The position numbers were made by a program, and so were the translations under genes. Of a stretch of 64,000 nt of DNA, positions 50,580 to 55,338 are shown piece after piece; positions within the stretch are counted from its first letter, which is position 1, and each line of letters opens with the position of its first letter. This stretch comes from Williamsia faeni (GTDB lineage: Bacteria > Actinomycetota > Actinomycetes > Mycobacteriales > Mycobacteriaceae). The notes beneath the pieces were generated by a model, which made no database searches, was not told the DNA's origin, and saw nothing but the letters and a program-made list of their open reading frames with translations. Location: NCBI GenBank assembly GCA_003202005.1, contig QJJF01000003.1:186001-250000 (forward strand), given 5' to 3'.

Positions 50580-52181
50580 CTAGTGCAGTCCGGCGTCCTT
50601 GCCGCCGTACTCCTGGCGGAGTGATGGCTTGATCACCTTGCCGGAGGCATTGCGCGGCAGCTCGTCGATGACGATCATTTCCTTCGGCTGCTTGAAACGA
50701 GCCAGGTGCTCGTTGAGGAACTCGATGAGCTCTTCGAACGTCAACTGCTCGCCGGGGTGGAGGACGACGATCGCGACCGGAACCTCACCCCAGCGGTCGT
50801 CGGCCCTGCCCACCACAGCTGCTTCGAGGATCTTCGGATGCGCGAAGAGCGCATTCTCGACCTCGGCGCAGTAGATGTTCTCGCCGCCGGAGATGATCAT
50901 GTCTTTCTTGCGATCGACGACGTAGACGAACCCCTCGTCATCCATTCGCACCAGATCTCCGGAATGGAACCAGCCGCCGGCAAACGCATCCGCGGTCCCC
51001 TGCGGGTTCTGCCAGTAGCCCTCCATCATGTTCGGCCCGCGGTAGACGATCTCCCCCACGTCACCGGTTTTCACATCGTTCATCTCCGCGTCGACGACCC
51101 TCGCCTGCACCGAGGGGATGACCTGCCCCACCGATCCGAGCTTGCGCAAGGCATCTTTGCCTTCGAGCACACAGGTGATCGGCGACATCTCGGTCTGTCC
51201 GAACACCGCGACGTTGATGGCGTCCGGGAACACCTCGGCCATGGCCCGCAACACGGTGTCCGACGCCGGTGCCGCACCCCACGAGATCACCCGCAACTTG
51301 ACGTTGCGCGGCTTGACCTTCTGCACCGCACACACCACCTGCCACTGCGCCGGAACGAGGAAGATCGAGGTGATGCCTTCCGCCTCGAGTACATCCAGCA
51401 ACGCCTCAGGGTCGAAAGCACCCAGCGGATGGATCACGGTCGGCACACCGAGGTAGAACAGCGGGGCCATCGCACCCATCGCCGCGATGTGGAACATCGG
51501 TGCCACACACGAGCCGACGTCGTCATTGCGGATCTGCAGCGCCGAGATACAGGTGACGGCCTGCGCCTGCATGTTGGTGTGAGAGAGCATGGAGCCCTTG
51601 GGATTACCAGTGGTTCCCGAGGTGTACATGATCATCGCGATCGAGTTCTCCGGCACGTCGATGGCCGGCAGGTCCGACGGGTCCTCGGCGATCAGGGTGT
51701 CGTAATCGAGTGCATCCCCGACATCGGAAGGACCGACGATGATCAGGTTCTCGACACCCTCGGTGGTCTTGCGGACCGCATCGGCGAGCGGGGCGAGAAG
51801 CGACTCGGTGACGATGACCTTGGCACCGCTGTCGGCGACGAGATAGCCGACTTCGGGAGGCGTCATCCGGATGTTGACCGGCACCGCGATCGCGCCGATC
51901 AGATTGGCGCCGAAGATGACCTCGACGTACTCGCTGCGGTTGAGCATGAGCACCAGCACGCGATCACCGAAACGAACACCGCGGTTGTACAGCGCTGCGG
52001 CGAATGCGGTGGAACGGTCGTTGAGCTGCTTCCAAGAGGTGTCCTGTCCCAAGAAGCGCAAGGCGACCTGGTCGGGCTTCATCTCTGCGTGACGGCGGAT
52101 GTGGGTGTTCCAGTTGTTGCGCCGAGACCGGAACGGCTCCTCGACGAGGTGGTCGGACTGAGGCAATGTGGAGCTCGTCAT
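50580..52181 (-). CDS. Acyl-CoA synthetase (FadD type)
   Basis: A 533-residue adenylate-forming ligase. Motifs: MYTSGTTGNPKGS (ATP), GQTEMSP (adenine), GWFHSGDL and the hinge DRKKDMIISGGENIY; the catalytic lysine is in NASGKVIK. It activates a carboxylic acid, most likely a fatty acid or aromatic/steroid acid, to its CoA ester. Precedes the enoyl-CoA hydratase gene in a head-to-tail pair (63-base gap; hydratase first). Confidence 0.9.
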   Translation of the reverse strand: MTSSTLPQSDHLVEEPFRSRRNNWNTHIRRHAEMKPDQVALRFLGQDTSWKQLNDRSTAFAAALYNRGVRFGDRVLVLMLNRSEYVEVIFGANLIGAIAVPVNIRMTPPEVGYLVADSGAKVIVTESLLAPLADAVRKTTEGVENLIIVGPSDVGDALDYDTLIAEDPSDLPAIDVPENSIAMIMYTSGTTGNPKGSMLSHTNMQAQAVTCISALQIRNDDVGSCVAPMFHIAAMGAMAPLFYLGVPTVIHPLGAFDPEALLDVLEAEGITSIFLVPAQWQVVCAVQKVKPRNVKLRVISWGAAPASDTVLRAMAEVFPDAINVAVFGQTEMSPITCVLEGKDALRKLGSVGQVIPSVQARVVDAEMNDVKTGDVGEIVYRGPNMMEGYWQNPQGTADAFAGGWFHSGDLVRMDDEGFVYVVDRKKDMIISGGENIYCAEVENALFAHPKILEAAVVGRADDRWGEVPVAIVVLHPGEQLTFEELIEFLNEHLARFKQPKEMIVIDELPRNASGKVIKPSLRQEYGGKDAGLH

Positions 52182-52244: not shown

Positions 52245-53057
52245 CTAATTGGATGCAACTGTCTGGTTTTTGCTCTTGCTTGCGAATGCGGCGATCAATG
52301 CCACGAATTCGGGTGATTGCAGGAGTTCGGTCTGGCCCTGTGTCTCCAGTTGCAACGCCAATTCGAAACCGGCCATCGTCTGGGCGTCGATCGCCTTCTT
52401 GGTCAGCGTCAGAGCCCGGGGTGAAGCCGCCAGCAGTTTGTTCACCACTTGATCGACCTTGTCCGCCAACGCTTCCGACGGCAGCACTGCGGTCACCAAA
52501 CCGTCGGCGTATGCCTGCGTCGCCGGCAGGCGTTCACCGAGCAACGCCAACTCGTTCGCGCGAGCACGGCCGACCGCCGCAGCCACCGTCGAGGTGGCGG
52601 CGCCGTCGGGCATCAAACCGATGTTGACGAACGCGAGCAGGAAGTAGGCCGATTCGGAGGCATAGATGAGATCGGACGCGAAAGCGACCGATGCGCCGAT
52701 ACCGACTGCCGCCCCGTCGACCACCGCGACGACCGGGACTTCGAGCGCCCGGATCGCGCGGACGACATCGGATCCGGTGTTGATGGTCCGCTCCGCGCGC
52801 TGCCGCGCCTCCTCTTCGGACGCCGGCGGTTCCGCAGTGGCCATCTCGATGAGATCGGCACCAGTGCAGAAGTCCCGGCCGGGAGCACCGATGACCACAA
52901 CCCTCACCGCGGGGTCTGCCGCCCACTCACCGAGCGTCTCGATCAGCGCCGAGCTCGTCGCCGAGTCCATCGAATTCTTCCGGGCAGGCCGATCAACCAG
53001 AACGCGCGCAACGCCCCGGTCGTCGACAGCCACAGAAAGCCCATTGTTCGCCGGCAT
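52245..53057 (-). CDS. Enoyl-CoA hydratase/isomerase
   Basis: A 270-residue crotonase-fold protein. Oxyanion-hole blocks are GRDFCTGADLIEM and AAVGIGASVAFASDL. The usual catalytic Glu segment reads NIGLMPDGAAT, with Asp rather than Glu, a pattern also seen in isomerase-like members. ATG 53057 follows GGTGG at good spacing. First gene of the hydratase-synthetase unit; divergent from the double-TetR regulator. Confidence 0.88.
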   Translation of the reverse strand: MPANNGLSVAVDDRGVARVLVDRPARKNSMDSATSSALIETLGEWAADPAVRVVVIGAPGRDFCTGADLIEMATAEPPASEEEARQRAERTINTGSDVVRAIRALEVPVVAVVDGAAVGIGASVAFASDLIYASESAYFLLAFVNIGLMPDGAATSTVAAAVGRARANELALLGERLPATQAYADGLVTAVLPSEALADKVDQVVNKLLAASPRALTLTKKAIDAQTMAGFELALQLETQGQTELLQSPEFVALIAAFASKSKNQTVASN

Positions 53058-53094: not shown

Positions 53095-53115
53095 TGTAGA
53101 TCACGTGAATCCACA
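53095..53115. promoter_or_regulatory. Candidate TetR operator between hydratase and regulator genes
   Basis: TGTAGAT-CACGTGA-ATCCACA is a 7-bp inverted repeat with one mismatch in a 176-base divergent gap, close to the hydratase start. Form and place suit the adjacent TetR-type regulator. Confidence 0.4.
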
Positions 53116-53232
53116 TTAACTTGTCAGATTTCTGCCGGACGCGTCAAGTGTTCGCGAGCGGTTGTCCTCGCTGGTCGACGGGATACGCCCCCTCCGCTGC
53201 AGATAGTCGCCGCCTGCGGCTAACATTGATAA

Positions 53233-54504
53233 ATGGCTTCAGCCAACGGACGCGTCAACGACGCCCCCACACCCGCTTCTGCCGCACCGAGAACCCGTCA
53301 GCGACCGAAGGACCGCCGCGAACAGATAATTCGCGTCGCCGCCGAATCCTTCAGCGAACACGGCTATTTCGCGACCGGTGTCGATCAGATCGCCGGTCAG
53401 GTCGGAATCAGCGGCCCGGCCCTGTACCGGCACTTTCCCAACAAGTACGCACTCTTCTCCGAGACGGTCCGCACACTCGGCGCCGACCTGGATCGCGCGA
53501 TCGCACAGGTGCCCACCCTACCCGGTGAACCCGAACGCGAGTTGAACCTGCTGATCACCGAACTCACCCGGACCACGATCGAGAATCGCTCACGCGGTGC
53601 CCTCTACCGATGGGAGGCGCGATACCTGAATCCAGAGGACCGCCGGCAACTCGGCGAGTTCGTGGGTCGGATGCACGCCCGATTCGCGTCCATTCTGGAC
53701 CAGATCCGCCCAGAACTGTCGACCGGAGGTGTGCCGGCGCCGGGACGCCTGGCGACGGACGCGCAGTACCTCAGCGGAGCAGTGCTCAGCGTCATCGGAT
53801 CGATCACGACGCATCGGGCCTCATTGCCCCGCAAGCGGATCGAGGCAGTCATCCTCGCCGCCGCGATGGACGTGGCCCGGACCGATCTCCCGCCGAACGA
53901 TCCGACGGCGGTGCCCGCACGCCCGGCCGCATCGGTCGGTCTTCCGATGGCATCGAAGCGGGAAGCCCTGCTCACCGAGGCGATCCGATTGATGAGTGCC
54001 CGCGGATTCCATGACGTGACGATGGAGGAGATCGGCGCCGCGGTCGGCATGAACCAGTCGGGCGTCTACCGCCACTTCGACACCAAGGTCGCCATGTTGT
54101 CGACCGCGTTCTCCCGGGCCAGTGAGCGCATCACCGCGGGGATCAGCGATGCCCTCGCCGAGTCTGCGACGCCGGACGAAGCCGTTGAGAAGCTGGTCAC
54201 CAAGTACGTCGACCTCTCGTTCGCGAACAGCGAACTACTCAATCTGTACCTGTCAGAGATCGGCAGCGTGCCCGAACCGCAGCGGATCGAACTCCGCGAC
54301 CAACAGCGCCGCAACGTCGAAGAATGGGCACAACTCGTCGGCCAGGTCCGCCCAGGCGTGAACCCGGTCGAAGCCCGGTACCTGGTGCATGCCGCCTTCA
54401 ACACCGTGCTCGACCTCGGCAACTGGGTACGCTACGACCCCCGACCGGCGACCCGGCTTCGCATCGAGGCCGTCATGACCGCGATCCTGCTTCCGAAGCA
54501 GTAG
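53233..54504 (+). CDS. Regulator with two tandem TetR domains
   Basis: A 423-residue protein, about twice normal TetR length. The first TetR DNA-binding domain is at about 26-73 (VDQIAGQVGISGPALYRHF) with its own ligand-type helical region. A second, unrelated-by-copy TetR domain begins at about 242 (MEEIGAAVGMNQSGVYRHF) and is again followed by a helical C-terminal domain. Each half has the full TetR layout. Likely represses the divergent enoyl-CoA hydratase/acyl-CoA synthetase unit in response to acyl-CoA. Confidence 0.88.
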   Translation: MASANGRVNDAPTPASAAPRTRQRPKDRREQIIRVAAESFSEHGYFATGVDQIAGQVGISGPALYRHFPNKYALFSETVRTLGADLDRAIAQVPTLPGEPERELNLLITELTRTTIENRSRGALYRWEARYLNPEDRRQLGEFVGRMHARFASILDQIRPELSTGGVPAPGRLATDAQYLSGAVLSVIGSITTHRASLPRKRIEAVILAAAMDVARTDLPPNDPTAVPARPAASVGLPMASKREALLTEAIRLMSARGFHDVTMEEIGAAVGMNQSGVYRHFDTKVAMLSTAFSRASERITAGISDALAESATPDEAVEKLVTKYVDLSFANSELLNLYLSEIGSVPEPQRIELRDQQRRNVEEWAQLVGQVRPGVNPVEARYLVHAAFNTVLDLGNWVRYDPRPATRLRIEAVMTAILLPKQ

Positions 54505-54525: not shown

Positions 54526-55338
54526 TCACACGACCTTGAAGTCAGAGATCAGCCACTTGCCGTTCACCCGTTCGAGTGTCACCTTGACCATGGATTGATA
54601 CGGGATCCCCTCCGGCAGTTCGGCGTCCGTCTGTGGCGACTTCACCGTTTGATCCATCGCCACCAGGACCACCGCATCTGTCGATGAAATCGATTGCAGT
54701 GCGGCCTCTTTCGGCTTCGCCGACGCAACGGCCTGCGCATTGGCGCTACCTTCGCGGGCCTGCCGGGATCCTTCGATGAAGTCCTTGGCGAACGCCGGCG
54801 TGGAGATCTCGGTGATCCGGGCATCCAGCTCCGCAAAGTTCGCGGAATCGTAGGTCAGCAGGTCCGCGGCATACCGGCCGGCGTCCTCGACAGCACTGGG
54901 ACGAAGGTCGTTGACCTGGTCATCGCCCGCAGCCCGGTTGTCGGCTTCGCGGTACAGGTACGCGAAGACCCCGGCGGCAACCAGTGCCGCGATCAACAGA
55001 ATCGAGAGCACCGGGACGGTCCACCGGCCACCTCGCCGGCCCGGACGATCAGCGGCCTGCCCATCCGACGTCGCCACCGCACCGCGGCCCGCCCGACGCT
55101 CTTCGCGCGCCGCCTCTTTGGCCCGCTTTGCCTCGGCAGCGGCACGCATCTTGTCGCGGTTACGGCGATTCGCCTCGAGAAACGCCTCCGAGTCGAAGGG
55201 CGACGGATCCGACTGAACGGTGGAATCGACCGCGGATTCTTCGGGCTCGGCCGTCACCGGCCGGGTCGCCACAGGCTCGGTCGTCACCGGCTCATCGCCG
55301 GACTCCCCGTTTCGATCAACCTTCGCTTTCGGACTCAT
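54526..55338 (-). CDS. Mce-associated-type membrane protein
   Basis: A 270-residue protein: acidic disordered N-terminus, charged helical stretch (RNRDKMRAAAEAKRAKEAAREERR), one membrane segment near 110-130, then an extracytoplasmic NTF2-like domain ending LERVNGKWLISDFKVV. This is the layout of Mce-associated proteins encoded with mce lipid-import operons, but no mce genes are here. Confidence 0.78.
   Translation of the reverse strand: MSPKAKVDRNGESGDEPVTTEPVATRPVTAEPEESAVDSTVQSDPSPFDSEAFLEANRRNRDKMRAAAEAKRAKEAAREERRAGRGAVATSDGQAADRPGRRGGRWTVPVLSILLIAALVAAGVFAYLYREADNRAAGDDQVNDLRPSAVEDAGRYAADLLTYDSANFAELDARITEISTPAFAKDFIEGSRQAREGSANAQAVASAKPKEAALQSISSTDAVVLVAMDQTVKSPQTDAELPEGIPYQSMVKVTLERVNGKWLISDFKVV

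Follow-up and report, generated by a model that had tools for sequence, protein, structure and literature searches.

Double and single TetR repressors described so far

Mce3R (Rv1963c) of M. tuberculosis carries two TetR units, M1 and M2, in one chain, and its structure (9b7y) is termed the first of the double TetR kind in a 2024 paper (Panagoda et al. 2024, PMC11667970). As described there, cryo-EM presents the single chain as an asymmetric intramolecular M1-M2 unit, a pseudo-dimer, in which both halves build one ligand-binding domain, and the authors allow for two ligands in the single cavity. The operator is non-palindromic, about 25 bp long, and distinct from those of Fad35R (BkaR) and KstR2. 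The substitution R53A abolishes binding, and the chains pair as a C2 homodimer holding two DNA duplexes (PMC11667970). The same paper cites a predicted 204 double TFRs in Actinomycetes. A literature search for double or tandem TetR proteins found no reported structure with operator besides Mce3R. The chcpca cluster, as reported, has two separate TetR-like genes (PMC5906575). For BkaR, which has one TetR unit and binds DNA as a dimer, the reported site is GTTA(N)T(N4)A(N)TAAC (PMC3920632; Balhana et al. 2013).

The regulator described here lies in a window of 64,000 nucleotides from Williamsia faeni, and the features of its locus are collected in Table 1. It is a new member of the known, rarely studied double-TetR kind and not a new kind of protein. 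It is likely to be an Mce3R-type single-chain TetR repressor that sets two different HTHs on one asymmetric operator, contains one composite pocket and controls divergent hydratase-fadD genes. The locus adds a candidate operator that is well conserved and can be related to the BkaR palindrome, together with a likely target operon.

Table 1. Features of the regulator locus, with positions counted within the window
Feature	Position	Strand	Remarks
Double TetR regulator (Mce3R-type)	53233..54504	+	ORF with ATG start, 423 aa
First TetR_N / HTH unit	53326..53463	+	Residues 32-77; recognition helix SGPALYRHF
Second TetR_N / HTH unit	53968..54099	+	Residues 246-289
Predicted asymmetric operator ACGTGAATCCACATTAACTTGTCA	53103..53126	+	24-bp motif, 19.6 bits
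16-bp core GTGAATCCACATTAAC	53105..53120	+	Same frame as the palindromic BkaR site GTTA(N)T(N4)A(N)TAAC
TAACAT, -10-like box just before the regulator ATG	53221..53226	+	TAnCAT in 9/9 aligned Williamsia loci
Enoyl-CoA hydratase/isomerase family gene, divergent, likely target	52245..53057	-	Start inferred from an ATG kept in 9 aligned loci
Fatty-acid--CoA ligase (fadD), likely target	50580..52181	-	FadD5 model NF005857, 791.8 bits, cut-off 733

Two TetR units in one chain

The original prediction of two complete TetR halves in a single chain of 423 residues is confirmed, and so is the clear difference between them. Pfam finds TetR_N (PF00440) in two stretches of the protein, with 101 bits in total against a cut-off of 24 bits, and also matches TetR_C_24. 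The halves, residues 1-221 and 222-423, are 25% identical over 186 positions (E 5e-11). The AlphaFold single-chain model, made from 59 aligned proteins, has a mean pLDDT of 85.5 and a pTM of 0.84, and its 18 helices, nine in each half, form the all-helical TetR fold. The pLDDT falls below 50 at residues 1-23, 168-170, in the linker 232-238 and in some shorter stretches.

The best solved relative of the regulator is Mce3R (9b7y), matched over residues 15-397 with E 8.6e-38. Mce3R residues 2-195 align with the N half (102.6 bits) and residues 215-374 with the C half (81.5 bits), and the units thus stand in the same order in both proteins. Foldseek aligns the model with 9b7y over 402 columns at TM 0.78/0.85. 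VIA aligns 384 residues at Z 39.6 and rmsd 3.3, and its next-ranked chain, BkaR, reaches Z 21.7 and covers one half only.

The alignment of 59 proteins comprises the window and 58 of 80 loci, the rest, mostly near-copies, being left out by hand, and its proteins are cut at the start of the tblastn match and not at the start codon. Residues S60, G61, P62, A63, Y65, R66 and H67 of the first HTH are invariant in it, as are S276, Y279, R280 and K285 of the second, and the recognition helix of the N-terminal HTH is less variable than that of the C-terminal one. The DNA contacts R53 and K262 of Mce3R correspond to R66 and K285, as read by eye from the alignment and the published numbering. As both are invariant, neither HTH appears by sequence to have lost its DNA contacts.

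In the same genome, two TetR_N stretches occur in only two ORFs among the 115 TetR_N matches listed, as judged by coordinates. One is the regulator and the other is a paralog of 412 aa at C1:772301 (L002 1468-2706) that is 29% identical to it. The paralog is divergent from a thiolase gene, and its upstream block GGCTAACGCGCTGTAACTTATTTGACCATACC is common to nine Williamsia loci. Every one of the nine Williamsia genomes searched contains a full-length match to the regulator with at least 75% identity, and all nine also contain a second, paralogous match at about 30%. With 8 or 9 candidates scored per genome and any paralog counted, 158 of the 201 genomes in the family draw contain a match with an E value of 1e-30 or lower. 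In the phylum draw, with 8 or 9 candidates again scored per genome, seven of 198 genomes reach an E value of 1e-40 or lower; five of these, one being the window genome, belong to the regulator's own family and the other two to a different family in the class. The group is found in Williamsia, Rhodococcus, Nocardia and Mycolicibacter. A record titled Kitasatospora arboriphila (L071) has a regulator of 77% identity together with the full Williamsia gene order, and its name therefore looks wrong.

The upstream element and the neighbouring genes

The annotated neighbours in the window are an alcohol dehydrogenase (ADH), the FadD5-type ligase, the hydratase, an acyl-CoA dehydrogenase and a GntR protein. 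A divergent enoyl-CoA hydratase gene is present in 73 of the 80 loci and a divergent ortholog of the neighbouring fadD in 40, with both genes in 37. The regulator transcript may be leaderless and start from the TAnCAT box. Three Rhodococcus loci (L050, L057, L067) and one of Skermania (L062) have an extra divergent frame between regulator and hydratase that contains RTRFTE.FGV.HPIVQGGMMWVGRAELVA and that we take to resemble nitronate monooxygenases. On the other side of the regulator, 54526-55338 (minus strand) encodes a putative membrane protein with one hydrophobic segment, for which no Pfam or NCBIfam match was found. Its matches among the 80 loci, as far as listed, are limited to L047-L049 and L071.

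The nine Williamsia loci share one long conserved intergenic block, AGATCACGTGAATsCACATTAACTTnTCAGAT. An unseeded two-strand motif search in 51 dereplicated upstream regions (of 81, the window included, with near-copies removed by shared 10-mers) yields TTGCGAATTGTGGTTAACTTAGGT at 30.6 bits. All 81 upstream regions contain a site of at least 12 bits, 80 of them on the plus strand, and the lowest real best site has 13.4 bits, compared to a maximum of 7.5 in shuffled regions scored with the finished matrix. All 51 dereplicated sites retain the AAT of the left half-site. In the window, only the predicted operator exceeds 8 bits; it is among the weaker copies (the best reaches 41.7 bits), and the window and its relatives are themselves in the set from which the motif was derived. 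The predicted operator is upstream of both genes, at 46-69 bp from the hydratase ATG and 107-130 bp from that of the regulator. A scan of 1.31 Mb gives 129 sites of more than 12 bits: 110 upstream of the regulator, 17 upstream of fadD (one each in 17 of 80 loci) and two elsewhere.

A dyad at 53095-53115 had been proposed as the binding site, and this proposal does not hold: its left arm differs in the other eight of nine aligned Williamsia loci. In the window the dyad has only imperfect 7-nt arms, and it is absent from the inverted repeats listed by a search seeded with exact 6-nt matches. The conserved element at 53103-53126 is offset from it by about 8-11 bp.

A pattern search with one mismatch found further copies in seven of the nine Williamsia genomes and none in the window genome, and the pattern read backwards had no match with one mismatch in the nine genomes. 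One motif-like copy, GCGAATnTGGATTAACTT, is found at position 1501 of four loci from other Williamsia genomes (L197, L203, L205, L207) and in L203 separates an acyl-CoA dehydrogenase gene from a divergently transcribed enoyl-CoA hydratase gene. Another, GTGAATGCTCGTTAACTT or GTGAATYACGGTTAACTT, is found at 1501 in seven (L196, L198, L199, L201, L202, L204, L206), likewise from other Williamsia genomes, with no confidently identified gene nearby. A second copy on the same strand, 19-20 bp upstream of the best one, is present in 30 of 81 upstream regions, such as that of Nocardia L080 (7930 and 7949). A scan with the Williamsia 31-mer outside the genus gave mostly chance-level matches and showed only shared half-sites.

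The element is not palindromic. Its log-odds palindromy has a z of 1.39, and 8.4% of column shuffles score as high. The KstR control motif TAGAACGTGTTCTA, obtained from family relatives with the same procedure, has a z of 5.97, reached by 0 of 2000 shuffles. An earlier score, the mean cosine, was too blunt and missed the KstR palindrome too (about 17-21% of shuffles as high); the log-odds score was adopted after this failure, and the KstR matrix was rebuilt from the seed of the earlier result. Enough flank was present in 28 of 30 KstR loci, of which 25 were used after near-copy removal for the first score and 28 for the log-odds score. Within the 16-bp frame, mirror pairs 5/16, 8/13 and 4/17 are complementary in 0, 5 and 8 of the 51 sites, and pairs 3/18, 6/15 and 7/14 in 46, 50 and 41, respectively. 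The asymmetry is therefore fixed at particular positions over a partly symmetric frame.

This frame is that of the BkaR palindrome. The five listed BkaR sites fit the motif best in one common frame, with a summed score of -1.2, compared to a mean of -121 (sd 16, maximum -62) for shuffled sites. The right half TAAC is common to the BkaR sites and the motif, and the left half is changed. The Williamsia copy is closer to the palindrome than the Nocardia copies and is one core position off the BkaR consensus. At a guess, the N-terminal HTH may read the TTAAC half and the C-terminal HTH the GYGAAT half, because the recognition helix of the N-terminal HTH, SGPALYRHF, almost matches the SGPAIYRHF of BkaR and varies less than its C-terminal counterpart. 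Residue S277 occurs with the left half-site GCGAAT in 36 of 59 cases, G277 with C at site position 4 in 0 of 15, and G275/A278 of Mycolicibacter with GTAAAT in 7 of 59. This covariation of the C-terminal HTH with the left half-site is striking by eye but was discarded as evidence: it is confounded by descent, with residue 277 changing twice and site position 4 four times on the tree, and the sign test gives p = 1. A tentative extension, on which we lean slightly towards doubt, is that the fusion of the TetR units went together with symmetry breaking of an ancestral BkaR-type palindrome. TTAAC would have been kept for the N-terminal HTH and GTTA re-specified to GYGA for the C-terminal one, giving a directional operator of unchanged spacing.

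Proposed action and comparison with known repressors

Two chains might instead swap so that the N halves pair with each other and the C halves likewise, forming two symmetric TetR dimers that each have their own palindrome and ligand. An AlphaFold model of one chain is compatible with a swapped assembly, and M1 of Mce3R, when isolated, assembles into dimers and tetramers (PMC11667970). However, the swapped model was tested and rejected for Mce3R; its cryo-EM structure has the intramolecular M1-M2 arrangement, and M1 alone is described as not binding the operator (PMC11667970). The single-chain model superposes on Mce3R over 384 residues and the conserved element lacks the palindrome, and swapped dimers are thus quite improbable. 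Even less credible, to the point of being highly improbable, is a C-terminal unit that serves merely as a dimerisation or ligand module and leaves the reading of DNA to the N-terminal HTH. The greater conservation of the N-terminal recognition helix across the 59 proteins would suit it, but the C-half counterparts of Mce3R DNA contacts (Y279, R280 and K285) do not vary, and AAT is retained in the left half of every dereplicated site.

The element could also be the site of another regulator, for example a BkaR-type TetR, or a divergent promoter element, as its core lies in the BkaR 16-bp frame and a one-mismatch copy lies away from the regulator in four other Williamsia genomes. We consider this unlikely, since the element follows the double-TetR gene in all 81 regions, and fadD besides, with two other sites in 1.31 Mb. 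Moreover, a fixed asymmetry is not expected under selection by a homodimer such as BkaR.

In the favoured Mce3R-type arrangement, the N and C halves would pair within the chain as a pseudo-dimer that has a single composite pocket for the ligand, and the two different HTHs would grip the differing half-sites of the single asymmetric operator. The bound regulator would repress the divergent enoyl-CoA hydratase-fadD genes, and binding of an acyl-CoA-type ligand would end the repression. The neighbouring genes suggest this control of acyl-CoA catabolism with an acyl-CoA-like inducer. Operator binding by one chain, the single shared pocket and a possible pairing of chains are predicted by analogy with Mce3R. 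The original prediction that the fusion binds an asymmetric operator as a monomer agrees with the asymmetric fold, predicted to be that of Mce3R, the two conserved HTHs and the non-palindromic element, while binding itself is expected by analogy. The idea that the protein senses two ligands is not supported, as the halves of Mce3R are reported to build one ligand-binding domain (PMC11667970). Bridging of distant sites, also suggested for the fusion, is possible because Mce3R forms a C2 homodimer that holds two DNA duplexes.

The locus provides a setting outside M. tuberculosis for how a fused TetR divides the reading of two half-sites. The system is also suited to asking how an operator loses symmetry alongside its repressor.

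Among known families, SACE_7040 (NF050111) is the best NCBIfam match to the regulator, with 187.7 bits over two stretches. However, this is under the 250-bit cut-off, and the model describes one TetR unit of 186 positions. BkaR (Fad35R, Rv2506; 4g12, 6yj2) is the nearest single TetR to the C half (E 7.9e-24), and its operator has the identical frame and one half-site in common with the predicted Williamsia operator. In contrast to the regulator, BkaR has a single TetR unit and acts as a homodimer on a palindrome (PMC3920632). Mce3R is only about 28% identical to the Williamsia regulator, whose neighbours are the hydratase, the FadD5-type ligase and the alcohol dehydrogenase; inspection by eye of the window's ORF listing revealed no mce/yrbE operon close to it. 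The predicted Williamsia operator also lies in the BkaR frame, whereas that of Mce3R is reported as distinct from the BkaR operator (PMC11667970). Nevertheless, the two regulators are alike in having two TetR units per chain in the same order, a near-full-length match in sequence and predicted fold, a lipid-metabolism neighbourhood, and a non-palindromic operator of about 25 bp, which is predicted in Williamsia.
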